A DNA stretch of 64,000 nt from Irpex lacteus (taxonomy: Eukaryota > Basidiomycota > Agaricomycetes > Polyporales > Irpicaceae). The notes under the pieces were generated by a model. The model was given only the letters and a program-made list of their open reading frames with translations. It had not been told where the DNA came from and made no database searches. The position numbers and the translations under genes were made by a program. The stretch covers positions 3,189,205-3,253,204 of the forward strand of contig MQVO02000001.1 of NCBI GenBank assembly GCA_001986395.2, given 5' to 3'. This document shows positions 3,453-64,000 of this stretch, in pieces; position 1 is the stretch's first letter; the number at the start of each line of letters is the position of its first letter.

Positions 3453-3575
3453 AGTCCTCACAAACACGGCCCAGAGTCCTCACAAACACGGCCCAGAGTC
3501 CTCACAAACACGGCCCAGAGTCCTCACAAACACGGCCCAGAGTCCTCACAAACACGGCCCAGAGTCCTCACAAAC
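3453..3575. repeat. 22-bp minisatellite, five full copies plus a partial
   Basis: The unit AGTCCTCACAAACACGGCCC plus AG is repeated head to tail with almost no divergence: five complete 22-bp copies from 3453 and a truncated sixth. It begins only about 22 bases beyond the stop codon of the minus-strand gene ending at 3597, so it should be transcribed in that gene's 3' UTR. Copy identity suggests recent expansion. Confidence 0.95.
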
Positions 3576-35508: not shown

Positions 35509-35825
35509 GTTATGTTATAACTTGTCGTGCCGACGAACTCACACCTATGCTAATTGGCTATCTTCGTCTCTGCCGAGTTCTTATAGAGGTCGAGACTGTT
35601 CACAACGTAAGTACTGCATACAGTAGTGCTTTACAATTCGTACGTTCGGAACTCTCTCTTGTTAATGTTATGTTATAACATGCATATGCCGTGCCGACGT
35701 ACTCACACCTACGCCAATTGGCTATCATCGTCTCTGCCGACTTCCTACAGAGGTCGAGGCTTTCCACAACGTAAACACTGTATACGGTAGTGCTTTACAA
35801 GTCGTACGTTCTCCATTCTCTCTTC
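35509..35825. repeat. Tandem duplication of about 158 bp
   Basis: Two direct copies start at 35509 and 35667. Both run from GTTATGTTATAAC through the shared blocks CTCACACCTA, TTGGCTATC and CGTCTCTGCCGA to CGTACGTTC. They differ by scattered substitutions and small indels, so the duplication is not recent. Confidence 0.85.
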
Positions 35826-48267: not shown

Positions 48268-48612
48268 GCGCGCTCTCTGTCTACTCCATGTTTTCCTCTT
48301 CGCTCTCGCATACTTCTGGACATCTTTCGCCTCACTCCACACACCTATCGTGCTCCGTCATCCTCTATCCTCACGTGTTCTTATACTTATTTTGCATTGC
48401 TCTCTTCTTTTCCGTTGCTTTGGATGCTGTATCATTATAGTATGCTGTCTGATGTCGCTCATGTGTCTCATAGTCATGCAATTAAAATCACGGCTGGATT
48501 ACTGTACGTGCTGTGATGTGTATGCTACGGCCACTGCCAAAAGATGCGCCACATTGCCGGAATTGTTTAGGTGTGCCGGAATGAGAGAATTCGTAAGTTG
48601 CAGTTCAATGTA
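48268..48612. other. Intergenic: IRE1 3' flank to tRNA
   Basis: A 345-bp gap between the IRE1 stop and the tRNA gene. I see nothing else in it. Confidence 0.4.
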
Positions 48613-48717
48613 GGCTCAATGGTCTAGTAGTATGATTCCTGCTTCGGGTTTTTCCCATTGCTTCCAAAAAAGCAATATACCTGCAGGAGGTCTCGGGTTC
48701 AATTCCCGATTGAGCCC
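48613..48717 (+). tRNA. tRNA-Pro (anticodon CGG) with a 33-nt intron
   Basis: The acceptor stem GGCTCAA (48613-48619) pairs with TTGAGCC (48710-48716), with discriminator C at 48717. The D arm region contains GGTCTAGTAGTATGATT, close to the A box. The anticodon stem is CCTGC/GCAGG and the loop is TTCGGG-T, placing anticodon CGG at 48645-48647. The T arm is TCGGG-TTCAATT-CCCGA with a good B box. The intron occupies 48649-48681, immediately 3' of position 37, and can fold on itself (ATTGCTT/AAGCAAT). It decodes CCG proline codons. It marks the junction between the last core gene and the repeat-rich chromosome end. Confidence 0.93.
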
Positions 48718-48723: not shown

Positions 48724-49119
48724 CAACAAGAAAAACAGTTTGACCGAACCATCATGTGAATGTGGCGGAAACACTAAATAGACAAGCTGCTGGCCTGCTG
48801 GACATTTTTTGACATGTCTATCTAAGGTTGTTGTGTGTGGGATACCACCACAGAGGCAATAGCAGACTGGACTCTAAGTGTGTGATGCTTGACATGAGTA
48901 GTTACTATGAGGTACGCTAGGCCTTGCCAGGCCCTAGAAAGCCGCCGAGCCTGGGCTAGGCGCGCAAGCAGGCTCTGCGCCTCGGGTGAGCAGATGCGGG
49001 TTGCTGAACTGTGCCAGTGACGGGATTGCAGCGACGAGTGCTCACCGGCTAAGCCGGTGAATGCTCGTAACCTGACAGTGTGAGGTGTGACTGCTGCTCA
49101 CTGTGGATTAGGTTGAGGG
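48724..49119. other. Left margin of the subtelomeric block
   Basis: No gene. A GC-rich stretch near 48910-49000 contains several GCCTAG/CTAGGC pieces, and the first full dyad (ACCGGCTAAGCCGGTGAA) is near 49045. Confidence 0.5.
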
Positions 49120-49520
49120 GTTGCACGCAGCATGTGGCCGGCTAAGCCGGCGAGTTAGCAGATGAGACTGCTCACTGTGGGCTGAGCCGGTGGGTGCCCG
49201 TCACAGAGTATTAGGTGTGACCTATGGGTTGGGAGGGTCGCAGGCAGCATGTGGCCGGCTAAGCCGGTGAGTTAGCAGATGAGACTGTTCACCAATGTGG
49301 GCGTGGGTGCCCGTCACGGAGTGTTGGGATGAGTTGGGAGGGTCGCAGGCAGCATGTGGCCGGCTAAGCCGGTGAGTTAGCAGATGAGACTGTTCACCAA
49401 TGTGGGCGTGGGTGCCCGTCACAGAGTGTTAGGATGGGTTGGGAGGGTTGCAGGCAGCATGTGGCCGGCTAAGCCGGTGAGTGAGCAGATGGGACTGTTC
49501 ACCACTGTGATGCCTGTCTC
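49120..49520. repeat. Dyad array, units of 105-117 bp
   Basis: The dyad CCGGCTAAGCCGG recurs at 49138, 49255, 49360 and 49465 (spacing 117, 105, 105). Each copy is preceded by GCAGCATGTGG and followed by GAGTTAGCAGATGAGAC or a close variant. The last copies are nearly identical. Confidence 0.9.
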
Positions 49521-50116
49521 TGGTGGGGAGTGGGTGTGGCTCCGTTGCTCACCCTAAATGGGCAGTTGGTTAGTTAGTTAACTGCGTATAGATGAGAAAC
49601 ATGAGGAGTGCGATATAACCTATCTGACCGTACTTAGCTGCAGGCAACCGTGTTGGCCGGCTAAGCCGCTGTATACACTGACAGACGACTACTTAGACAT
49701 ACATCACTGCCACGAAGTCGCTGTAGCGAGAGGCAGTTGCCGCTACGAGAAAAGTAAATTTGGAGCTCATGAGGCCAAGTCTCACGGATCCGTCATATTC
49801 TCCATACACGTGGTACAGATCTAGACCACTAGCCTGTCAGGGCTAGTGGTCTAGAATCTATGCCACGTGTGGTTTATGCTCGAGATCTCGATTGACTTAG
49901 CCGTAGTGGGCGACAGGTTGCGATGGTCTACACGTAATAATAACCGTGCATTGTCATTCACGAAGACGTGAGCCGAGCAAGGTTGTGCCCTTCTCATAAG
50001 CGAGTTGTTTCCAGAAGACAAGTAACGTTAAACCTTCAACTAAGCGAATATGCAGTTCGCATGAGGTGCTACGTGAGCGCACAGGGAAAGATATAAAGGT
50101 CGAGCCATGAAAACGC
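49521..50116. other. Intergenic between the 105-bp array and the next gene
   Basis: About 600 bp with another dyad variant near 49655 (GGCCGGCTAAGCCGC) and the inverted repeat listed separately. No ORF supported; the right part should be the promoter of the gene starting at 50117. Confidence 0.45.
49805..49869. repeat. Long inverted repeat (hairpin 1)
   Basis: Arms of about 29-30 bases separated by 6 bases. The inner 15 (TCTAGACCACTAGCC) pair perfectly and the outer ACACGTGG pairs perfectly, with a short mismatched part between. It lies about 250 bp upstream of the gene at 50117. Confidence 0.9.
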
Positions 50117-50926
50117 ATGGCGGGAGTAAGCTACTCAGTCATGCCATTCCGCGCCCTTTGGACGAAGGAAGTCTACGTGCAGCAGCGGCGTACAGCCCCG
50201 ACTGCTGGGTTTGAGTTGAATGTTGTCCGGTGGTTTTATCAGGTGAAGGAGGGGATCGCGGCAAATGGCGGCGGTGCGTTCCTTACATTATACGAAGTGT
50301 GGGTACTGACGTTGTGCACAGTGCGCCCTCAAAAGTTTGCTGGGATTGAAGCTCAGCTCAGTGAGCGGGAGCAGGACCTGCTGGTGAAGATGGAGAGGTT
50401 GATCGTCTCCGAGCGTCGTCAAGAACACGCTGGGACCTCTGATGCCGAGTTGGCACTCAGGGACGGCGACGTCGAGCCTTTTCTGCAACCTCTTCACGAG
50501 CCTGAAGCGTGGGCCCCCTATTACTACCCGGGTGACCCAGTGGTGTCGCCGGACTCGGACGACAAGGACTGGGCGGAGGAAGAGGAGCTCGCGGCGCTGG
50601 AAGCCGAAAGTTTCGATCGGACGGACGAACTTCCGTCAGGCGAATGGACAAAATTCGTCTCCATCCCTCCTCACCGAGCAGACGACCTTGAATGGCTGCT
50701 GAGAAAGGATCGAGCTCTTCTGCGGGTGCCCGGCCACGGAATTGAAGGCTTCTTCGACAGGGTGGAGGACTGGAGGAAGGAATTGCCGAAAGGCAAGGCC
50801 TACTGCTTAAAACACTGTGGGGAGGGTCGCCGACTGGTCGTCATCGTTGCTGCAGAGGCTGGAACGTATAGTGAGGTGGACTTACGGGCGTGGGCCCATC
50901 AGTTGTATACAAACAGCCTTGGCTGA
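50117..50926 (+). CDS. Subtelomeric protein of unknown function, acidic centre
   Basis: An open frame of 269 residues starts at a good ATG (50117) and ends at TGA 50924-50926. The N-terminal half contains W-F-Y-Q-V-K-E-G and a long helical segment. The centre (about 130-185) is acidic, including P-D-S-D-D-K-D-W-A-E-E-E-E. The C-terminal third reads S-G-E-W-T-K-F-V-S-I-P-P, then L-E-W-L-L-R-K-D-R-A-L-L and R-L-V-V-I-V-A-A-E-A. A perfect GTGCGT...CACAG intron of 48 nt (multiple of three, beginning at about 50274) sits inside the frame, so a product 16 residues shorter is likely. I recognise no family. It is the first gene of the dyad-rich block, with hairpin 1 upstream. Confidence 0.6.
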   Translation: MAGVSYSVMPFRALWTKEVYVQQRRTAPTAGFELNVVRWFYQVKEGIAANGGGAFLTLYEVWVLTLCTVRPQKFAGIEAQLSEREQDLLVKMERLIVSERRQEHAGTSDAELALRDGDVEPFLQPLHEPEAWAPYYYPGDPVVSPDSDDKDWAEEEELAALEAESFDRTDELPSGEWTKFVSIPPHRADDLEWLLRKDRALLRVPGHGIEGFFDRVEDWRKELPKGKAYCLKHCGEGRRLVVIVAAEAGTYSEVDLRAWAHQLYTNSLG

Positions 50927-51036
50927 ATTAGGACGCTGTTATCATAATTCTTCGCCGAGGCATTTGAATCAAAGTCACGGTCTTGCTGGAGATGAATGTG
51001 TGAAATGCAAATGAGTTTGTGACGGTAAAGATACAG

Positions 51037-52220
51037 CTACTGAGACAGAGCAGTGCGCCTGATGGTCTTAAGCTTTTGCAGCATGCGGTCATATTCGAAC
51101 ATGATGGTGTTTTCTAACAGAACGCGACTACTAGCTCTGTCGACGAGCCCTTCCAAAGTTTCAATCTTTCTGTCCAGATACTCGACTGTAAGCACGGCAT
51201 CGGGCGGCGGCGCGAAGAATGCGTCCTTGTCGGACAGAGCCTTGAGTTCAGCTGGAATTTATTGGTACAGATGAAGGCGAGAATAGAAAGATGGCAGCAT
51301 ACCATTCCTACGCTCCTCGCTCCAACATACAACCTGCAGCCTCTGCCGAATGTCTGCGGGTGTCAGAGTGCGCGAGACGACGTCGACTTCTTCGGGAGCC
51401 TTGTTCAATGGAACATTGAGGATATAAGGATATGATAACGAGGATGAAGGCGACCACGTACCAGCGAAATGACATTCTTGGTTGATGCGGACGTCTGAGA
51501 GGGTGAAGTATTTGTGTCGCTCCTAAGGAAAGGGTACAGTTAATGTGTGACGGTTGGCGAACTGTAGACACCTACATAATGCTTGAAGGGAGTGTAAAGC
51601 AGACCAGTCACCTTTTTATAATGTTGCTGGCATGAAAATCGCCGGCTAAGCCGGATGACATTCACAGCAATGGGAATGGGCGGCTGGGCCGGCGACCTCT
51701 CGTGCGAGAGAGCAGCTGGAGGCACTCGGCGGCTGAGCCGGCCACTAGCTGTGCGTGAGAGCAGCTGCAGGCATTCGGCGGCTGAGCCGGCCACTGGTTG
51801 CGTGAGAGAGCGGATGCAGGCACTCGGCGGCTGAGCCGGCCACTAGCTGTGCGTGAGAGCAGATGCAGGCACTCGGCGGCTGAGCCGGCCACTGGCTGTG
51901 TGAGAGAGTAGCTGCAGGCACTCGGTGACCAATTCGGCCCCAACCTGTGTGGGAGAAGGGCGGCTGAGCGCGTGTGAGAGCAGCGGCAGGCACGCGACGG
52001 CTGAGCTGGCCATTGTCTGCGAGAAGAGTGCGTCTGGGCGGGTAGGTCAAACTAGTACATCAGTGAGAAGCGTAGAGCTTTAGTGGGGAAGCGTGAGGCT
52101 AGGCCGGCAAGTCGCGATAGTGATCACAGATCATGCTCTTAGCCGACTAATTTCTTCACGTTTTAGACGAGCTTCGAACCCATGTATAGAGATAGGAAGT
52201 GCCAAGTCGTTTTCTGGCAT
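51037..52220 (-). CDS. Subtelomeric coiled-coil protein of unknown function, repeats in its first intron
   Basis: The three downstream exons are clear and in phase: about 51626 down to the GTAGGT donor near 51573, then 51522-51303 and 51251-51037. They encode T-G-L-L-Y-T-P-F-K-H-Y, E-R-H-K-Y-F-T-L-S-D-V and a C-terminal helical region, E-Y-L-D-R-K-I-E-T-L-E-G-L-V-D-R. The likely first exon is 52220 downward (M-P-E-N-D-L-A-L-P-I-S-I-H-G-F-E-A-R-L-K-R-E-E). The exact donor is unresolved; a GC donor after L-R would fit the phase. If right, intron 1 is about 500 nt and contains the 49-bp dyad array. It is divergent from the gene at 52401. No family recognised. Confidence 0.5.
51680..51935. repeat. 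Dyad array, exact 49-bp period
   Basis: The core CGGCTGAGCCGG recurs at 51730, 51779, 51828 and 51877, exactly 49 bp apart, with a degenerate fifth copy near 51925 and a variant (CGGCTGGGCCGG) near 51681. Linkers GCACTCGG and GTGAGAGAGC/GTGAGAGCAG alternate. The array probably lies in an intron of the minus-strand gene. Confidence 0.9.
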
Positions 52221-52400
52221 TTTCAAGTGACAGTTAGTCAACTTATCAGGGTCGCCTGAGTACCACACCGATCAGAGAAAACGTCCAAAATCACGTACGC
52301 TCGCGTCGAGGATAACGTACATTCGCTTAAGCTGGCACGATGGAGGAATATAAGGGCATTGATTTTTCACCGCCTCCTACAGCGAGCTAGCCCCTCCACG
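52221..52400. promoter_or_regulatory. Divergent promoter interval
   Basis: About 180 bp separate the likely start codon at 52220 (minus) from the ATG at 52401 (plus). No dyad copy lies inside it. Specific elements were not identified. Confidence 0.4.
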
Positions 52401-53112
52401 ATGAACGTGTCAAGGGCTCAACATCTCCAGCTATGGATGATTGACCAGCGGAGTGGGTCGCAAATGCCAGTTGTCGCCCCGCCGGCGATGGAGGAGATGG
52501 CCGATGATGAATTCGAGGACGGTAAGCCACATGGAATATCAGGGCAGTTGTTGCATCACTAAGGGCGGCTCAGATCCAGACTCAGACTCAGACTCAGACT
52601 CAGACATGACTGTACGACAAGATGACTACAACCGGTCACCCAACACACGGTCGATATTTGAGGACTTTGACGACGAGGTGGATGATAGTTGTGAGGGAGA
52701 CGGCGACGACGAGACGGATGAACTCGGGGATTTGCAGGACAGTGGCAACTCAGGAAACGGTGAAAATGACGGTCAACAGGAATTCGATTGGGCAGCCGAG
52801 CCGGAGGAGTTCGTAGAACTCTGCGCGTACCACATATGGTCCAAAGAGGACCTCACGGTGGATTTCGCTGGCCGACTTCATGGTCTATTCACACTTCCCG
52901 ATGAACGCGAGCCCAGAGATTTCAACATCTTGGGCTACATGTTTTGGCGCAAGGAGTTGGCATGGGTGTGTCTGGAAGACGTTGAAGGGGGCGCGGTAAT
53001 CGGGATCTGTTTGCACTCGTTTACTATGAAGCCAGAGACCGAGGGAGAACACGATACCTGCTCTGGGTTGGAGAGGTGGATGATGCGTGTATATAATTGT
53101 ACTGATATGTAG
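52401..53112 (+). CDS. Subtelomeric acidic protein of unknown function
   Basis: Two exons, 52401-52521 and 52574-53112, join in phase across a 52-nt GTAAGC...TCAG intron to give 219 residues. The first 35 residues are neutral. Then follows a D-S repeat (P-D-S-D-S-D-S) and a strongly acidic stretch (E-D-F-D-D-E-V-D-D, D-G-D-D-E-T-D-E-L). The C-terminal half looks globular, with F-V-E-L-C-A-Y-H-I-W, F-N-I-L-G-Y-M-F-W-R-K-E-L-A-W and G-L-E-R-W-M-M-R-V. I recognise no family. An acidic centre flanked by tryptophan-rich segments is also seen in the gene at 50117, but I cannot show homology. Confidence 0.6.
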
Positions 53113-53303
53113 CTTCGGCGCGAACATGTATTCGTAATCTTTCCTGTTAAAAATGGTTTTAGCTTATTGTTAAACATGGTATACACAGGTGGTTATGATC
53201 ATAGCACTTGACGTCGTGGATGTGGGTCAAGTAGAGCAGCGGCAATATCGTAGTCCGACGACGGCGATGCTGAGTTCGCGCCCTGGCCTGCGCAAAATGT
53301 TGG

Positions 53304-53354
53304 GAGCTGATAACGCGCGGTGATTTCGATCGAATCACAGCGTGTTATCAGCTC
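53304..53354. repeat. Long inverted repeat (hairpin 2)
   Basis: Arms 53304-53328 and 53331-53354 with a 2-base loop; GAGCTGATAAC and GTGATT pair perfectly with their partners, with a few mismatches between. It lies between the acidic-protein gene and the helicase gene. Confidence 0.9.
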
Positions 53355-53409
53355 TAGCAGGGTTGCGTTCACTAACCTTTTAGGTGTCGGTTGATCGGGG
53401 CGTGTGGCA

Positions 53410-53920
53410 TTACCCGTGTGGACGGCTAAGCCGGCGACGCACGCCTCAAGGCTTGGGAATGTATACAGGCAGCCTCAATGCACGCCTCGTGGACGTATTC
53501 GGCAAGACATGCTCATCGGGGCAAGCGAAATGAAGGCTAAGAAGGCGATCCGCACAGCAGTAAGCGGCTAAGCCGGTGACTCGTCGCACATATCAACGGA
53601 GAAGCACCAAAGGGGAAACTGACAGACGGAGATATCCGTCTGGCGTGGTGGCCGGCTAAGCCGGCGATGCACGCCTCACGGCCTTGAAAATGAATACGGG
53701 CAGCCTCGAGGCACGCCTCGCGGACGCGCACATTGACTACGCTCATTGGGGTAAGTGGGATGAGCGTCCAGCAAGACGACAAGCACAGGAGGAAGCGGCT
53801 AAGCCGGTGAACTGTCACGCATACGCACCGACGTGCACCAGACGGGGAGTTGAGGGACGGAGACATCGCTCTTGGTGGGCGTGGTGGCCGGCTAGGACGG
53901 CGATTGCCATATCTAGGACT
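53410..53920. repeat. Tandem units of about 235 bp carrying the dyad
   Basis: Two full units begin near 53410 and 53645 and a partial one near 53880. Shared order: GGCTAAGCCGGCGA, GCACGCCTCA, GGCAGCCTC, CGCCTCG-GGACG, GCTCATTGGGG/GCTCATCGGGG, GCGGCTAAGCCGGTGA, GACGGAGA. Each unit has two dyads. The rest of 53113-54226 holds no gene. Confidence 0.85.
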
Positions 53921-54226
53921 TGAAACGAGGCCGTGATGGTGTCTAGGACGACCAATCAGTGTCCGCGGTATCAATATAGAATTCGTGGCGCAGATCTTCC
54001 GCAGGCTGGATATTCTTGGCTAACATCCTAGCGTGAGAGCGAAATATACAGCCCTGCATCTGTGTTGCCGATGCGTCTACGCGGAGTATGTTCGCGATCT
54101 GCGATTTGCAATCTCTGGCTATCCTCTTCAGGATGCGGTGATGGATGTCATTTCATTAACGTGACATTTATAACTCGCGTGCCTGTCCCTTTCCCTCTCA
54201 TCCTCCTCAGTCTCCTCTCTCTCATC

Positions 54227-57200
54227 ATGAAGAGCCTGGCATGTATGTTACTTGTCTTCAGCGACATCTGGTCCTCGCCGTCGTGGCTCGAACGTACTCG
54301 AGTCCATGGCGCGCCCTGGATGGAGCCTCGTACCTTCATCGACGGCACCCCGACGATGCCGGAAGATCAAGCCGTCGAGGTTGAAGCCCTCCTCAAGGCC
54401 ATTCAAAAGCCCGATGACGAGGACGCTGCGCAAGGAAAGCATGCGCGAAACAAGAAGAAACAAGAACTGATCTACTACAAGAAGGAGCACGCCCTGGGCC
54501 GCGCTATCTGGAAGGGATGGGTAGGTAGTCATTTTAAGCGTTGGAAACTGAACAACTTCGTCGACGACTGGGCGAAGACGGTTGGCTGGGACGCGGAGAG
54601 TATGGTCAAAATGTCCAATTCGCGAACGGTGCGTTGCATTCGACTGTTGTCTGACTGGTTACTGACTGCATGATAGTTGAGTCCGGCCGTCACCGGCAAG
54701 TTCCAGCGAAAGACCGATGCGTTCTTGGCCGCGTTCTTCAATGGCGACGAGCCTGTCACGATCCTGGAGGCGTTTGGCTGTTGGAGCACGAAGGCTGTCG
54801 ACTTCGCCGAGCACGTTCTTCGTGACTTGACGATTCGGCGTTGGAGCGGGCAGCAGACTCGGTTTCAGGCTAGCGTCATGAAGGAACGCTTGGCAGTTGA
54901 TGCCGCCTACGAGCGTGAGTAGAGTATGCAAGCTTGACTTGCTTGTCTAACGCGCTTCACTTCCAGGAATGGCTTCCGGCAAGGGGGACGTCTGCGAGAT
55001 CACGTCGGAGTACGTTGCGCTGGCGAAGAAATTGCGCGACAAGTTGGCCACCAAGACGCTTTTGGATGGCGAATCCGAGATTGTCAAGGACATCGAGGCC
55101 AAAACTGCAGGCGTGCTGCGTAACATGAACTTCGACGGTGATCTCGCCAGCTTGCCTGAAGCGAGTAAGTACTTGTGTTTTCTCAATGTCCATTACTTAC
55201 TCCAGTTCAGAGACGTTGAAGGCGTGGCGGGCAGCGGTGAAGAATCTCGCCAAACCCGAGCAAATGAAGGCCGTCGAGGTTCAGATCCACTCGATGCTGA
55301 CGACCCCGCTCAGCGACGACCTTCCAGAGTCGTTCGACGAGATCTTTACCCAGCTTCCTCAGCTTGGTGATGTGGCCGATGGCGCCTACTCGAAGAAATC
55401 GTCTCATGAGCTGTACGAGTCGCTTGGCTTCCCGACAGATTGCATTCAGGGGATCGCGGATAAGCGGGACAAGGAGCGCGTTTACAGTATGTGGGACAAT
55501 GACCCCGACGCCGTGGCGTTCTGGGAGAACCCTCCCAAGGGTCGAGTGGAGGAGCTGAAACTCACATGGCATCAGGATGTCGGTGTGCACGTCGCCTCCG
55601 TTTCGATGTGCAGGAGGCAACCCTTGTTTTTATTCGACGCCGTTGGCATAGGCAAGACTGCGCAGGGTGCCGGTGCCATATTGATGAGGCCCTGGCTTCG
55701 ATCGTATTTCGAGACGAATGGCAAGTTGCCTCCTGCGATGGGTGAGTGTTTATTCAAGTTCCTGCTATGCGATTGAGAAGTGGGCGGCCTAGCCGGCCAG
55801 TGCGTGCACAGACCGCCTGTCTACCTGCGTAGGCAGCCTGCACGCAGTCAGCACCGGCCTAGCCGGTGAGTGCGTGCACACAGGGCTGTACGCATGCACT
55901 GGCAGCTGCACGCAGCCAGCACCGGCTTAGCCGGTGAGTGCGTGCACCCAGGGCTGTGCTCATGCACTGGCAGCTGCACGCAGCCAACACCGGCCTAGCC
56001 GGCGAGTGCGTGCACAGATGGTCTGTACGCGACTATAGCCATCCGCATGCAGTCAACACCGGCTTAGCCGGCGAGTGCTTGTACAGACAGCCTACACGCG
56101 TGCATAGGCAGCTGCACGCAGCCAACACCGGCCTAGCCGGCGAGTGCGTGCACAGATGGTCTGTACGCGACTATAGCCATCCGCATGCAGTCAACACCGG
56201 CTTAGCCGGCGAGTGCTTGTACAGACAGCCTACACGCGTGCATAGGCAGCTGTGGGCAGTGACCACCGGCTTAGCCGGTGAGTAGGTACTCAGTCGAGTT
56301 GTTTGCGTCCGCAGACGGCTGCATGCAGTGACCACCGGCTCAGCCGGCGAATGGGTGAATGCTGTCCTTGTGAGCCCGCATGCGTCCAGGCAGAGAGCAC
56401 GCCGGCCTAGCCGGCCATTTCATTACTCAAGTAATTTTCTCAACAATCTGTTTCCTGCGTCATGCGTCAGTTAGTCGATCTCGTTTGCTAACAATATTCT
56501 CAGCTGGCATACCGGACGCTACTTGCCCCGAGGACGGGATCAGTATCGTCATCGCCTCGTCGGGGTTGCTGTCTCAGTGGCAGCAAGAGCTCCGAGACTT
56601 TGTCCTGCCTGGACACATCGACATCCTCTGGTACGAAGGCAGGCTTTCAACTCGCAAGGACTGGTGGACCAATACGTTTGGTCGCAGCCTGCAACCCATC
56701 CAAGCTCGAAAAGTCGTGCTCGTCAACTACAGTGTAAGTCCGTGATCAATCGATTCATTCCTCTTCTGATCGTTTCTTGCAGGCTCTCACAGACGACGCC
56801 CTGGCCGTCTTGGATGATGAAGGCATGATTCGGCCTGGAGGGGACAACACTCCTTCTACCCTTTTCGGTCAGGTCATAGGTACCCTCATCATCGACGAGG
56901 CTCACAGTATCCGCAATCGTAATCGCCTCTCTGCTGCCGTCAAGGCCCTCGTCAAGATTTCGGGAGCTGCTATATTCCTAACGGCCACACCTATCGTCAC
57001 GAGACCAGAGGTGAGTCTGCAGTCTGGCCGCCTTACATGTTTCTGACGACTGCTTCTAGGATGGTTGGCGTCTTGCGGATGCTGCCGGGCTCGAACCCGG
57101 TGAAGAGAACCGGAAGGCCATGGCGAAGGAGATACGCGAGGCTCAGGCGAAAGATCGCAAGGAGGCCGCCTCACTCACTGAGGCCAGCACGTCTGATCTC

Positions 57201-59759
57201 CTCACTGCGTCGGGCGCCCAGCACGATAAGGGTACTTTCTTCGTCGTCTGTGCCAAGTGGATCAACCTTCTCCGCACCTTTTTCGCTGGTCGCGCTCTTC
57301 GTCGGACCCTTCGCACCTTGGACTTCGAAGACAAGCCTCTTTGGCTCATGCCCGACCCTGTGGAGGTTCAGATGAAGCTCAACCTTCACGACCATGAGCT
57401 GGATGTCCTCGAGAACGCTGCTGAGACGGCCAAGGCGAACACGAAAAAGGATTCCGGTTGGCGTGCAGTACGTGATATGTTTTTTCTCAAAGAGACCGAG
57501 ATTGACTTTATCTGCAGTCTTTCTATCTCGACGCGCGCAAGTGTGTCCTACATCCCAGCCTGCGTGATTCGAGGCTTCTGCGATCGCCTCCCTCCACGCT
57601 CGAACAGTACAACGCCGTCCCCTCCGCCAAGATCGATGCTATCATCGCGATCATCACGCATCATCAGGCCGCAATCGGGCTCCCACCTCTGCGCGCCTCG
57701 TCGCCCACTCCACCCACCACCAAGCCCAACGCCTTCGAGCCTATGACATGGGAGGAGGCCCTAGCCATGCGGGCAACTGATTTCGAGTTCGATCCGAACG
57801 TCGAGAGGCCTGAGCCGTCGCACGACAAAATTGTCATGTACTCGGCCTTCCCCGAGCACAACTTGTTTCTCAACGCGGTACGTCTTTTGTGGTGTATGCT
57901 TTTTTTGCTAATGATATGGGATCTAGTGCCTCTCTTTTCACGGTATCGAAACGATGGAGGTTAACGGTCGCAAGACTAGTGCGCAACGTGCGGAGACGTT
58001 GAAGGCGTTCCGTAGGGCCCCTCCAAACGTCGTACTCGTCATCTCCAGTGTGGGAACCACGGGCCTCAATCTCGATTTCGCGAATATCATGATCATCGCG
58101 GTGAGTTATTTCATTCTTGTTTCATTCCTGTCGTCCTAATAGAGCTACAGGATCTGTTGTGGTCGAAGCAAGACGCGCTTCAAGTCATCGGGCGTGTTTG
58201 GCGTCGACCCCAGCCGAAGCAAGTCATCGTGTACCATCTACTTGCGCTAGGATCCCCTGATGAGTTCCTGAACGATCTCTCATGGGGAAAGGGCGCCATG
58301 CACGACACGTTCGTCGGGGACCGCCCTAATTTAGGTATGTGTCCCACATGCCTTTCTCATAATCAGCTCACCTCCGGGCACAGCGAGTATGCTGAGGAAC
58401 GAGGATCAGGAAGACGAGGATGCCTTGGACGATCACGCCGAGCAGGACGATCCAGCGGCGCTAGTCAATGCCGCGAAGAGCAGCGCCTCCGCCGAAGCCA
58501 AAGCACTCGCCAAAGGCAAGGGCAAAGCCAAGGGCAAGGCCAAAGCCAAGGGCAAGGGCAAGGCTGAGGCTGAACCCGCGACTGAGCCCGAGGCCCCGCG
58601 TGAGCCCAAGCGCAAGCGCAAGCCCAAGGCCAAGAGTAAGGACAAGGGTAAGGACAAGGCCGCCGGCGAAGACGGAGCCGACCCCATTCAGGATGCCGAG
58701 TTCGTGCCTACTCAGCCCGTCGATTCTGACCCTATTCAGGATGACGAGCTCGTGCCTACTCAGCTCGTCGATCATGACGCATTGTCTCGGGCCCTCGCAG
58801 AGAGTCGTCGGCAGCTCGACGCCCATCGTGCGCAGGTCGGTAAAGCTGGTCAGTCGTCTGGTATGGCTGCCATGGCTGCTGCAGTCCACTCGCCGGCTGA
58901 GCCGCAGACCTCCCTCCCTGCTCCCTCCGCCTCAACGGACACCGCGGTCTCGTCCACTACCTTATCAGCGTCGGCAACCGCGCCTATCCCTCCTCCCTCC
59001 GCCAGCCAGCTCTCCCGCTCGCCTTCCCCGTGCACACCTGCTTCTCGGGGCGATCCGATGGATATTGATGCAGACGACAAGATGGACGTCGATCCCACGC
59101 AGTCAGATCAGTTCAATTGGGACGACCTCGGACACCTGCTGGCCAACGACGACCCGACTGAGTGGTCCTTCATTCGCGCCTGCCTGACCGAGGAGATGGA
59201 CTTCAATGACACTTCCATTGACTTCCAAAAGAAGTTCGGCAAGCCGTTCGAGTGGCAGAAATGGCAGCAGTTGGGCATCGAGTTTGACCCTAACGATCCG
59301 CAGAAGCACTTGACTATCGACTGCGTCGAGTACTTCGATAAGCTGCTAGACTCGTGGCGTCGCGAGGCGTTGACCCCAGACCCCAATGCCGAGGAAGAAG
59401 GCGGTAAGCGTGGTCGATTTTAACAGAAGCAAGGTTATTAATTTTTTGTAGATCCAGCGACACCGATGAAGCTCCCAGGCAAGCGAGCCAAGTCTGCAAC
59501 TCGCTCTTCGTCTTCCGATCGAGTGGTGTCGCCTACCCCGGCGCCCAAGAAGATTCGCCCCGCCATCGACGACATCAGAGACCAGAGCAACGTCAGCGGA
59601 ACTATGATTCCCGCGCTTCCGGACTTACCCAGCAGCAAGCCCCCGAAGAGGAAGGCTGCGGCGAAGGCTGGAGCGAAGATCGCTACTATGGCCGCGGAGA
59701 AGAGCGCTGCAACGGCTAACACTGCGTCTGGCTCTCGTCGCCCTCCTCGCAAGGCCTAG
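54227..59759 (+). CDS. SNF2-like helicase/ATPase, subtelomeric
   Basis: Twelve exons join in phase from 54227 to 59759 (54227-54628, 54677-54914, 54967-55164, 55211-55741, 56504-56733, 56783-57010, 57060-57467, 57518-57877, 57927-58100, 58151-58334, 58384-59403, 59452-59759), giving 1426 residues. SF2/SNF2 motifs are intact: D-A-V-G-I-G-K-T-A-Q (I), I-I-D-E-A-H-S-I-R-N-R (II), F-L-T-A-T-P (III), S-S-V-G-T-T-G-L-N-L (V) and Q-V-I-G-R-V-W-R-R (VI). An N-terminal part of about 470 residues is unfamiliar. The tail has a Lys/Ala/Gly-rich stretch, a repeated D-P-I-Q-D-x-E-x-V-P-T-Q, a Ser/Pro linker and a basic end. Nine introns are near 50 nt; intron 4 is 762 nt and filled with the 69-bp dyad array. 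It probably moves or remodels protein-DNA complexes. The exact start is uncertain; in-frame codons continue to 54062. Confidence 0.85.
55784..56418. repeat. Dyad array, 67-70 bp period, inside helicase intron 4
   Basis: Ten dyads (CCGGCTTAGCCGG or CCGGCCTAGCCGG) start at 55784, 55854, 55922, 55990, 56059, 56128, 56197, 56266, 56335 and 56402. The linkers alternate between two types (GTGCACAGATGGTCTGTACG and TTGTACAGACAGCCTACACG). Each dyad is followed by GGTGAGT or GCGAGTG. The whole array is intronic. Confidence 0.95.
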
Positions 59760-59980
59760 TCCATCCTACAAGTTCTCCCCTGGTCAACGTTCAACCGTTC
59801 GACCCATACTGCATCTATCATGAACTTGTGGATGATTCGAGGCTGCTGTCGGTGGGGTGCTCAAATGGACTTTTTTTTGTAATAATAAGATTTGTACGCG
59901 TATATCATTGAGATGTTTTGATTCGTTGGAATGTGATTTGCTTTGTCTGTGTTCGATTATGGTGTGTCTTTGAGATTCAG
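59760..59980. other. 3' flank of the helicase gene
   Basis: About 220 bp with a T8 run near 59871 and an AT-rich segment; no gene. It leads directly into the 52-bp array. Confidence 0.4.
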
Positions 59981-60312
59981 CGGCTAAGCCGCACACTCAC
60001 TGCCTGGAGCCTCATCCTATTCACCCACTCTGCGGCTCAGCCGCACACTCACTACCTGCAACCTCACCCTGGAGACGCACTCTGCGGCTAAGCCGCACAC
60101 TCACTGCCTGCAGCCTCATCCAATCTACCCACTCTGCGGCTAAGCCGCACACTCACTACCTGCAACCTCGTCCCAGAGAGGCACTCTGCGGCTAAGCCGC
60201 ACACTCACCGCTCATGAGGCATTCCCAACTACGTACTGGTGCGCACGGCTAAGCACGCCACCCACAATGCCACTTCAATGTCTCCCTCGCGTGCTGCCCG
60301 GCTAAGCCGCAC
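59981..60312. repeat. Dyad array, exact 52-bp period
   Basis: CGGCTAAGCCG (once CGGCTCAGCCG) starts at 59981, 60033, 60085, 60137 and 60189, exactly 52 bp apart, then less regularly at 60246 and 60299. Each copy is followed by CACACTCAC; linkers alternate TGCCTG-AGCCTCATCC and TACCTGCAACCTC. Confidence 0.95.
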
Positions 60313-60778
60313 ACTCACCGTTCATGAGGCATTCCCGGATCCCTTCCATTGTGCACCTCGTTGGCTAAGGCGGAAAAGTCCTCCCGCATGACTTCACAAC
60401 GCGTGGATCTGTGCTACTTGGAATCCGTATCTTGTGATCGCTCGGGGCTGTAGAACTAGAAATGGTGAACGTAATGCGACCTGTTGAGAGCTCCTCCACA
60501 TCATTCAAGTCCACGATGTTGCAACCAATGGGTCGTGACAGGCCATGAACGGCAGCAGCCGATCAGGCCTGTTCACGACCTAAAGGATGCTACATTGCTC
60601 GACTTATACAATGCGTTGTCGCTCCCGCGAGCCGCAGCGTTCCGTGTCAATCGTCGCTAGCCCGCCATCGCTCCAAGGGCATCAAATCTCCGGGTCGGCC
60701 GGGAGTACGGGACTCACATAAATCATTATAATATAACATGCTGCTCAACTCCGTAGCCCCGCCCCTCGAAAATCGACC
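60313..60778. other. Promoter-side gap of the last gene
   Basis: No gene. It contains hairpin 3 and a TATA-like AT run (ATTATAATATAAC, about 60725-60737) roughly 45 bp before the start codon at 60779. Confidence 0.5.
60531..60580. repeat. Long inverted repeat (hairpin 3)
   Basis: GGTCGTGACAGGCC (60531-60544) and GGCCTGTTCACGACC (60566-60580) are complementary apart from one bulged base, with a 21-base loop. It lies about 200 bp upstream of the last gene. Confidence 0.85.
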
Positions 60779-63447
60779 ATGGCCAGTGAGTGGCTCCCAA
60801 CTCGCAACTGGAGCCTCGAACAGTTCGTCGAGACCGCGAAACAAATCCTGCTCTCAGGTCGAGACGATGCCATTCACCGATTTCTTCAGTTTGTCCTCGC
60901 AGGCAAATCTTTCGATCCTGCAGGCAGGGCGAAGCGTGTACGTTTGATTCCATCCATGCATACTCCGGCCGTGGACACTCTTCGCTTGCGTGCCACGCGC
61001 GATTTCGACTCTCTTATCGGGATCACCACCTCTCTTCCATTCCGCCGCGCCATCGCAATCTATCCGCTCCCAAACTTTCAAGATACACTGCGCAAATCCA
61101 ATCATCTCGTCAAGCAGATACGTTACCAGGTGATGTATCCTCTGACATAATTTCGCCTTTGATTCTCACCTATATGAAACTTAGGGATGGAGCGAAGCAC
61201 GCGATGTCGAGTTACATCTCATCCCAAATACCTGTTTCGCGAAGCTTGCCCATCGTGCCAAGATTCTTATTTTCTTTCCAAAGCTCTACGTTCCCGGGCT
61301 AGGCGTCCAATTATCGCAGGAGCACCTACGGGCATTATACTTGTCTACCCGTAAAGCGTTCAAGGCCTGTTGTCCGGAGCACATCTCTCATTGGCATCCA
61401 AACTACACGACAGCCTTTGAAGCGGCAAAGGACAAAACCGGCAAGCTTCACTTCTCCACTGTTGACATCTCCGCCTCTCTCCTCCCCCGATTTACGGAAC
61501 GTCTTCGGAGGAGGCTGCATCGCTTCCCCGAATTTGAGGACTTTTTCTTCGTGACGGAATACCGTGGTCTCAAGGGTCAAACCTCTCATGATGGAGCTGA
61601 GGCCGCGGGAATCTATGGCGCCTACGACGCTCTCACCGTTGACCTCAATCTTGACGATATCAACGACAACGAGTGGTTTGTCGATATTGGGCTCGAGCTT
61701 CATGCTCCCGGAAAGGTTTTGCAATGGACCGAGGATGCCCACGGACTTCTGATGGAGTACCTTTTACCAAACTTGAACCGTCATAACACACGCAAACTTA
61801 TGAAGTCTTCCCGCTGGTCAACCGATACCGCCGCGCTCCTGTACGATCTTGCCGGATTTCGCGTGCCGTTGGGCGGCCATCCCGACCACGATGGGATACG
61901 TTACATCAATGTGTATACCACTGACAAAGGCCCCACGTACCAACTCCACCGAGGGGCCTTCGGCTATCACAAGCCCCTCGATGTATTGCCGGATGCCATA
62001 CATGGACTCTTGAAAGACGTCTCTCAACTTATGTCCATCTATCGTCACTGCTGCTATAACGCCGCTGGAACTCAAGAAGGTTGTACGAGGCTAGAAATCA
62101 GAGTGCCCTTGATGGCGGCGTACGATCGAATCCGTGTCTTTCCTCGAGACCTGGCGCGAGACACCGTTGTGGCCCTTGATGCAAGAGTCTGGTGGTGAGA
62201 TGTCTAGTGATTCTACAGTTAGAAGTCACGGCTCACTATTCCGTAGGGAGTTCAAGTGCCTCCGCGTAACCGCACTTCACTACGTGTTGTCAGCGTTTCA
62301 AGAAGCCCCGCCCAGCAGTCAAATACAGGTGCAAGGATTGCGATTAGCTGCCTTGTCGGTGTGGATGTTAAACGCGATGATCTTCCGGCCCCCGGATTAT
62401 TCATCAGACAGGAAGCTTTCTCGCATCTCTGCTTTGCAGTATCCAGCTGGACTTGATTACTGGGAGGAGGATGGTATGGCCGACGGAGATGAGCTTCCAG
62501 AGCCAGCACTTGGTATTCGAGGCGCCTATTTTGTGGCGGATATTCACGTCCATGACCACTTTTTCTATTTGCCCTCGCTGGGGCCAGACGATTGGGGCGT
62601 CTCAGACATCCGAGCCGTCTTCACACTACCCGCAGTCCAAGTGAACGCAGCATTCCTATCAAGGCGAGCCAGGCAGCAAGCACGAGTTATAACTGCAAGC
62701 GCGCCGAAGGCGAGAAGGATGCGCCGTCCGCAAATCGTCGTTCGTGAGATTGCAGCAGATGCGAAGGTAGACGTGTTGCCCAATCTGAACCTTGAAGCCT
62801 CAGGTGTTCGATTCGCACCCCTGGAGACTTTACCAGAGCCAGGTGCCCCGCTTGCCGCGCCCCCAGCCCCCCAACACGCGAACATTGTCGCATCAGCCGA
62901 GGTAGATCGCGCCGTACAATCAATTCTCCGTCAGCTCTGCTCCAACATTGTTGCAGTATCTCCAAATCGTCGACGGTCGGGCAGAAATATGTATTGCACT
63001 CTGTCTCCCGAGAAGCAGCAACAGGTGGACGCTGCACTCTTTAGGCAAACCTGCCTCCCTTTTGACACCGTTCAGCTGAAGTTGGCCCCGATCACTACTT
63101 GGGACACCACGTTCTTTGATCGATTCTTCCCCTCTCAATTCGACCAGGACCCATCCACTCGCTCCCGTCGACAGAACTTTGACAAATGTAGCTACTTCCT
63201 CGAGTGGGAAGCAGTGGTCACTAGGCTACCACCTGACGACATCAGCAAGATTCGGGCTGAGCTTCTACCTTGGTGGCAAACACTCACCTGGCTTCCGTAT
63301 TCTGCATATGACCGTATGTGGGACACGAGACCCTGGCACGATCTGTCAAAGACACGATTACCCAACGGTAGTGGCAACGGTCCTGCCCCGCGAATTGCTG
63401 TCAACGAGCGAGCTAGAGTAGCGTTGCGTCAATTTAGGTTGAGCTAG
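60779..63447 (+). CDS. Large telomere-proximal protein of unknown function
   Basis: Three exons (60779-61129, 61185-62194, 62247-63447) join in phase over 55- and 52-nt introns to 853 residues. It opens M-A-S-E-W-L-P-T-R-N-W-S-L. There is no signal peptide or membrane span. The first two thirds look like one or two globular domains with conserved-looking segments such as F-F-F-V-T-E-Y-R-G-L-K, W-F-V-D-I-G-L-E-L-H-A-P-G-K-V-L-Q-W and P-D-H-D-G-I-R-Y-I-N-V-Y. A basic, Pro/Ala-rich linker (about 640-700) follows, and a C-terminal domain carries D-K-C-S-Y-F-L-E-W-E and L-P-W-W-Q-T-L-T-W-L. I recognise no family and no catalytic motif. The frame is uninterrupted, so it is probably under constraint. 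Hairpin 3 and a TATA-like run lie upstream. The stop is only about 430 bp from the telomere repeat. Confidence 0.75.
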
Positions 63448-63523
63448 TGCACATGTATTGTAGACACAGTTGCGTTGGGCTATTGTGTAATCTAATGACT
63501 GGTCTTACAGCGAGAGGTGAGAT

Positions 63524-63877
63524 TGGCCGGCTACGCCGCTCAGACCCCTGGCTCGTCGCTTCTTCGTCTATGAGTCACGGACTGTTGAATGGCCGGCCTA
63601 GCCGCACACTTGCGCCGACACAGCCTCCCAGAGTTGACCGGCTCAGCCGGCCAGCGCTCTCCTGTGAGCTGCGGTCGAAGTCACTAACAGGCGAACTGCT
63701 GCTGCCAGTGCTCACCGGCTAAGCCGGCCATTACTGGGCTGTGGACACGAGCCGAGTTTGAAGCGCCCTGCGGGGTTTGCATGGGTGGGTGGGCGGCTTA
63801 GCCGGCCATTTTTTTGCGTACGCATCTAACTAACTAACTCACTCACTCCCAGCAGAGCTGACCGGCTAAGCCGGCCA
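63524..63877. repeat. Telomere-adjacent dyad cluster
   Basis: At least six dyads (near 63529, 63593, 63639, 63714, 63793 and 63861) with irregular spacing. Three of them continue as CCGGCCATT. The last one passes straight into the telomere array. Confidence 0.9.
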
Positions 63878-64000
63878 TTAGGTTAGGTTAGGTTAGGTTA
63901 GTTAGGTTAGGTTAGGTTAGGTTAGGTTAGGTTAGGTTAGGTTAGGTTAGGTTAGGTTAGGTTAGGTTAGGTTAGGTTAGGTTAGGTTAGGTTAGGTTAG
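63878..64000 (+). repeat. Telomere repeat array (TTAGG)n
   Basis: About 24 head-to-tail pentamers TTAGG reach the last base of the window, with a single irregular unit (TTAG) near 63900. The G-rich strand runs 5' to 3' toward the window end, as expected at a right-hand chromosome terminus. The unit is five bases, not the six-base TTAGGG usual in filamentous fungi. Confidence 0.97.

Follow-up and report, generated by a model that had tools for sequence, protein, structure and literature searches.

In yeast, the chromatin or transcription state of the subtelomeres is set by sites for Tbf1 and Reb1, and the zinc-cluster protein Ume6 binds the sequence TAGCCGCCGA. Here we describe a short dyad that lies in several tandem arrays at a chromosome end of the basidiomycete Irpex lacteus and that differs from the Tbf1 and Reb1 sites. 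The stretch analysed (the window, 64,000 bp) is the right end of the 3.25 Mb contig C58, and the genome searched comprises 44.3 Mb in 317 contigs. The dyad proved to be genuine: it is a symmetric, constrained motif that occurs in many unrelated contexts and is for the most part confined to subtelomeres. We consider it, with a probability of about 0.6, to be the predicted 19 bp symmetric binding site of a putative homodimeric DNA-binding protein working at chromosome ends. Site positions and telomere-bearing ends are those among the matches listed, and the number of such ends is a lower bound.

A symmetric motif at the chromosome ends

An earlier note on the window had reported one and the same 6+1+6 dyad in every unit of arrays with different periods and linkers. 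The arrays were recovered at 49.05–49.51, 51.68–51.93, 53.42–53.90, 55.79–56.42, and 59.98–60.31 kb, as were single dyads scattered irregularly as far as the telomere, which starts at 63,878. The dyad had not been noticed in the first 48 kb, and indeed no match was found before position 49,045 with one mismatch allowed. At this stringency the window contains 30 matches to CCGGCTNAGCCGG, compared with a mean of 0.18 and a maximum of 2 in 100 shuffles. An identical 6+1+6 dyad in every unit was not found, as the outer bases vary among the arrays. The word of the 49 bp array is GCGGCTGAGCCGG, the 52 bp array has GCGGCT(A/C)AGCCGC, and part of the 69 bp units have CCGGCCTAGCCGG. The strict 13-mer was rejected as the conserved unit because the outer base and the centre vary; the core common to all arrays is the 11-mer CGGCTNAGCCG, with A (80), T (73), G (18), or C (16) as the centre base among the perfect cores examined.

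The shape of the full motif was derived from 182 perfect cores in 20 flank-similarity groups, a set that leaves out the internal loci L033 and L034 and a site in the helicase coding sequence with its copies. The half-site reads T(0.92) G/C(0.59/0.33) G/A(0.75/0.18) C(0.80) CGGCT, and the full motif is symmetric, TSRC-CGGCT-N-AGCCG-GYSA, comprising 19 bp. It has a sharp edge at position 9, the information falling from 1.47 bits at this position to 0.13 bits at position 10. Within the 20 groups the frequencies of T at position 8 and of C at position 7 both round to 0.00; among the 122 half-sites of a set of 61 contexts, which leaves out six sites judged to be background, these letters were found in three and one, respectively. 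The core letters were fixed by the choice of sites and only positions 6–9 serve as evidence. Paired CGG triplets are present at fixed spacing (CGG-N5-CCG); here the core is the search word, so that the evidence lies in the excess and the context only. The outer T...A pair, which was not used for picking sites, is present in 140 of the 216 genomic cores, compared with about 12 expected from base composition by our own arithmetic, many of the sites being duplicates of each other. The 19 bp pattern with outer T and A occurs at 140 sites in the genome and once in the reversed control.

Genome-wide, CCGGCTNAGCCGG was found at 112 sites and its reversed control at none. The 216 genomic cores consist of 158 sites of CGGCTAAGCCG (control: 6) and 58 sites of CGGCTGAGCCG (control: 21), many of the latter being internal and background-like. 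For CCGGCTAAGCCGG 100 of 104 sites were listed, on 20 contigs. Ninety of these are situated less than 20 kb from a contig end, a zone comprising 7% of the 20 contigs, and 96 less than 40 kb from an end (14%). On the 13 listed contigs longer than 150 kb, 54 of 58 sites lie within 40 kb of the ends, that is in 10.5% of their length. The remaining four listed sites form a single cluster on C37 (65.6–65.9 kb) within a fragment of the repeated block described below. The near-confinement to chromosome ends for which the earlier note had proposed a genome-wide motif search was thus borne out. Among the 100 sites of CGGCTAAGCCG listed, two have unrelated flanks, one on C1 and one at 2.98 Mb of C58. 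At least 17 contig ends bear telomeric repeats, and in 13 of them dyads were found on the same contig end (C32, C33, C53, both ends of C58, C67, C70, C80, C92, C110, C131, C136, and C212); the dyads on C32 and C67 lie 27–36 kb from the telomere.

Constraint on the dyad and its possible causes

The suggestion that the dyad itself is selected is upheld, as far as constraint is concerned, by the variation of array cores and linkers, by the retention of dyads at ten chromosome ends, by the outer T/A pair, and by the sharp edge of the motif. Six arrays were compared, with units chosen by hand according to the array register and degenerate cores included. In five of them linker variation exceeds that of the core by factors of 2.7 to 8.7, and in the sixth the core is invariant. 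The pairwise differences of core and linker are 0/0.375, 0.04/0.289, 0.133/0.485, 0.056/0.453, 0.057/0.498, and 0.162/0.430; in array 1 this corresponds to 0 of 100 differences in the core and 318 of 848 in the linker. Windows of 11 columns with a variation at or below that of the core, the core and its overlaps included, numbered 3 of 93, 5 of 38, 9 of 231, 2 of 58, 1 of 41, and 2 of 49, respectively.

A second subtelomeric repeat of about 1.7 kb is found at the ends of C53, C116, C170, C185, C212, C28, C32, C33, C58 (left end), and C60. Its BLAST pieces are 74–87% identical to C53, and the first 1.3 kb, which hold three dyads, are well conserved; no open reading frame of 130 or more amino acids is present in C53 2102–3460. 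In the alignment of the ten ends the three dyads are in matching places, with 25 of 30 cores perfect and five with one mismatch. They are equalled or beaten in conservation by 32, 44, and 51, respectively, of 570 nearby windows. Between young copies of the block, which are about 1% apart, we counted 7 changes in 825 core positions, 9 in 600 for the four bases on each side, 97 in 4028 for array linkers, and 74 in 7448 for other noncoding DNA. The core had changed less than the array linkers (p 0.003). These counts imply that the array linkers change fast and that, on a short time scale, the core changes at no lower rate than ordinary spacer.

If the dyad is a protein site, the predicted homodimeric factor would bind clustered dyads in subtelomeric intergenic DNA and might determine the state of chromatin or of transcription in these regions. 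The arrays would originate when the sequence adjoining a dyad, whatever it is, is duplicated locally in tandem; periods and linkers would consequently differ from array to array, the selected site being retained. We regard a fungal zinc-cluster (Zn2Cys6) protein, or else a different general regulatory factor, as the probable identity of the putative binder, the former being a candidate because the core is CGG-N5-CCG. TAGCCG of the Ume6 site equals one half of the dyad, which we regard as a lead only. That the binder is encoded in the same block, an attractive possibility according to the earlier note, was not supported. Dyads occur on contigs where block genes were not found, and the block proteins tested with Pfam (gene B not among them) contain no zinc-cluster domain and, the SNF2 helicase excepted, no DNA-binding domain. 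In searches of the own genome the helicase was found on at least four of the 20 listed dyad-bearing contigs, gene E (exon 2) on at least three, and gene A on at least four. A protein from one block may act in trans.

Several observations weigh against a selected protein site. The whole data set is a single genome. In this genome no binder has been identified, and it was not searched for binders. Four of the 17 telomere-bearing ends (C4, C35, C61, and C112) have no perfect core on the contig among the matches listed. Some arrays hold windows as invariant as the core, such as the 49 bp array (5 of 38) and the 231 bp array (9 of 231), core and overlaps included in both counts. The dyads at the ten ends rank in the top 6–9% of nearby windows and in the top 8–13% of all windows. 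Between the young copies the core changed no less than other noncoding DNA (p 0.85). Finally, position 7 covaries between the two arms, being paired in 42 of 61 contexts where 32.3 are expected (p 0.001).

This covariation would be expected of an element that folds into a hairpin or cruciform in single-stranded DNA or RNA and thereby stalls replication or drives tandem duplication, and so would the perfect 5+1+5 core with arms of up to 9 bp, the presence of the dyad in every array, and the joint swap of both outer bases in the 52 bp array. Positions 6, 8, and 9 do not clearly show compensating changes, however. Of the 61 contexts, 38 are paired at position 6, where shuffling predicts 35.0, and 32 at position 8, where 26.9 are expected (p 0.08). 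Mismatches of the types G/G and C/C occur frequently, and the outer T/A pair is retained although it lies outside the variable pairs 6 and 8. The near-independence of positions 6 and 8 fits a dimeric protein better, and of the two possibilities named in the earlier note, protein-binding site or hairpin, we consider the hairpin improbable. We give no better chances to neutral descent of all arrays from one old satellite, with the conservation of the core resulting from gene conversion or from the picking of sites by their core. Arrays do homogenise, weak linker words are shared (for example CAGGCA in 12 of 46 contexts), and the ordinary rate of core change in young copies would be in line with it; a second shared linker motif was looked for and nothing strong emerged in the contexts compared. 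On the other hand, the outer T/A pair played no part in site picking, the low-variation core persists in units chosen by register, degenerate cores included, and matching dyads are kept at ten diverged ends.

A zinc-cluster factor could also drive gene A, gene C, the helicase gene, and gene E of the block from the array upstream of each. By our own gene models every larger intergenic gap of the block holds an array, although coding regions would exclude arrays anyway. Such an upstream regulatory site appears rather unlikely, as dyads are found on the contigs without detected block genes and inside an intron; no CCGGCTAAGCCGG was found among the matches listed on C187 or C137, which carry distant helicase relatives (C267, which has a relative of gene E, lies beyond the listed matches). 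Breakage of ends at or beside dyads followed by recapping by telomerase is very unlikely to explain the motif. TTAGG starts 4 bp after the final core of the window and 3 bp after a core on C110, that is at 2 of 15 junctions, and in a pattern search of the genome AGCCG preceded the repeat by no more than 24 bases at these two ends only. What may be a half dyad stands at the end of C131, where a full core is found at a distance of 68 bp. The value for 2 of 15 (p about 0.01 by a density estimate) was judged after the data had been seen, and none of the remaining 12 junctions has a dyad-like site closer than 115 bp (C92, one mismatch), most having none within 700 bp. Quite unlikely, too, is a role of the dyad as a mark of chromosome ends, in which a predicted dimeric factor would recognise the dyad on most ends whatever the sequence there and broken ends would be healed preferentially beside it, the dyad spreading by subtelomeric duplication and being retained since ends lacking it are at a disadvantage.

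In literature searches covering papers licensed through PMC, none of the titles and beginnings of abstracts listed describes the motif, and the full-text match to three core strings was confined to a Mycobacterium paper that is unrelated by its title. If a protein binds the dyad, it would be a subtelomere-specific factor of mushroom-forming fungi whose 19 bp address can be read, and the recognition, silencing, and repair of chromosome ends outside the yeasts would become testable. The diversity of the arrays amounts to a natural experiment in which a selected site can be separated from its changing surroundings.

The subtelomeric block and its surroundings

The dyads of the window belong to a subtelomeric block of about 15 kb (48898–63877; all features are on the plus strand unless stated otherwise), which has copies elsewhere in the genome and adjoins telomeric repeats at several chromosome ends. 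Near-complete copies are present on C212 and C131, partial ones on C116, the left end of C58, C110, C28, and C37. Over their long aligned pieces, C212, C131, and C116 show 96–99% identity, one 1.4 kb piece of C131 (89%) excepted. At the window end the block is followed by the telomere, (TTAGG)n, at 63878–64000. The pentamer TTAGG with odd units TTAG and TTTAGG was also seen on C4, C35, C53, C67, and other ends. TTAGGG is used for Polyporales in two papers (PMC10817607, PMC11783313), and both forms, TTAGG and TTAGGG, are printed in a Rhizoctonia paper (PMC7884421).

Array 1 (49045–49670) has five dyads spaced 93/117/105/105 bp, plus a dyad at 49,657, and is situated about 470–1100 bp upstream of gene A (50141–50926, 261 aa, no Pfam match). 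It is followed by a dyad at 51,642 and the 49 bp array (51642–52020), whose core is mostly CGGCTGAGCCG and which is flanked by minus-strand open reading frames near 51.1–51.6 kb and by gene C (52401–53112, two predicted exons; the exon 2 reading frame has no Pfam match above cut-off). The period of 49 bp is exact, as had been noted. The units upstream of the helicase gene (53418–53904), given as 235 bp before, are present and measure 230–231 bp with two dyads of different context each. The helicase gene itself (54227–59759) encodes an SNF2-like superfamily 2 protein (Helicase_C 1.2e-12, SNF2-rel_dom 1.6e-11). One of its predicted introns (55742–56503) holds ten units of about 69 bp with cores CGGC(T/C)NAGCCG spaced 67–70 bp; a further match at 58,893, in the predicted coding sequence, is probably due to chance. 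Upstream of gene E (60779–63447, 853 aa, three predicted exons, no Pfam match) lies the 52 bp array (59980–60310) with swapped outer bases (GCGGCTNAGCCGC); here the exact period held for the first five units, followed by 57 and 53 bp. Six dyads or near-dyads are found between gene E and the telomere (63527–63876). On C131 (L026) the last 1.2 kb before the telomere contain an additional array with dyads every 59–60 bp or so, the linkers of its last units being strongly diverged.

Relative to the window, all indels in the block genes of C131 are in-frame, and so are those of C212 apart from one deletion of a single base in gene E. Gene A is free of indels in both copies; its matches in the C58-left and C116 copies contain a stop, and in C116 the helicase and gene A match in pieces with internal stops. 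Some block copies look decayed or misassembled. Compared with the window, the helicase has non-synonymous to synonymous rate ratios of 0.63 and 0.78 and gene E has ratios of 0.16 and 0.21, all based on few changes. The intron holding the 69 bp array comprises 762 bp in the window, 762 in C131, 765 in C116, and, by subtraction, 757 in C212. We rejected the array as an exon, as a stop is encountered on read-through in the window and 757 is not a multiple of 3; the other three lengths are multiples of 3, so that length alone is not decisive. A protein search with the helicase gave five weak matches (best 1.4e-8), and none was found for gene E at 0.001 among 7,996 candidates scored. Single-sequence structure predictions had a mean pLDDT of 42.5 (gene A) and 34.1 (gene E exon 2), too low to be used. 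Distant relatives of two block genes lie at about 0.76, 0.91, and 1.02 Mb of C187 (helicase and gene E), 11–14 kb of C137 (helicase), and 399 kb of C267 (gene E); the C187 and C137 helicase copies look alike. Perhaps these relatives belong to a gene family that is old and either mobile or dispersed.

Directly before the dyad region lie a kinase reading frame and an RNase 2-5A reading frame, together IRE1-like. By eye, positions 48609–48717 resemble an intron-bearing tRNA gene; ARAGORN (bacterial setting) reported none there, nor did Rfam, which gave zero matches at gathering thresholds in the whole window. A chaperonin (HSP60-type) gene at 19.5–21.2 kb is 97% identical to Irpex rosettiformis over 93% of the query, from which the host would probably belong to the phlebioid polypores. 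Tandem repeats outside the dyad region are a perfect 22 bp repeat (3453–3575, 5.6 copies) and a 164 bp repeat (35526–35824, 1.8 copies).

Comparison with known systems

The sites of Zn2Cys6 proteins resemble the dyad in their inverted CGG triplets, present here as CGG-N5-CCG. The dyad differs in having a constrained outer T/A pair in addition and a spacer that is largely shared. Helitron 3' hairpins and bacterial REP palindromes are likewise short, GC-rich palindromes in many copies. In contrast to these, the dyad shows no enforced pairing at positions 6 and 8, and no Helitron-type (Rep/Pif1) or Rep protein was found among the block proteins tested with Pfam; terminal sequences were not tested.

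A multi-copy helicase gene beside telomeres is shared with the subtelomeric RecQ-like helicase genes of fungi, as described for Agaricus bisporus var. burnettii (PMC7473861). Unlike RecQ-like/TLH helicases, the block helicase matches SNF2-rel_dom and Helicase_C above cut-off and no RecQ model. The Saccharomyces X and Y' elements with their Tbf1/Reb1 anti-silencing sites (STARs; see PMC3060084, PMC9531808) are alike in combining repeated telomere-adjacent blocks, a helicase-type gene, and short protein sites clustered in the noncoding parts. The locus described here differs from X and Y' in that the dyad is a different, symmetric sequence spread over several tandem arrays, the helicase of the block is SNF2-like, and the host is a basidiomycete.

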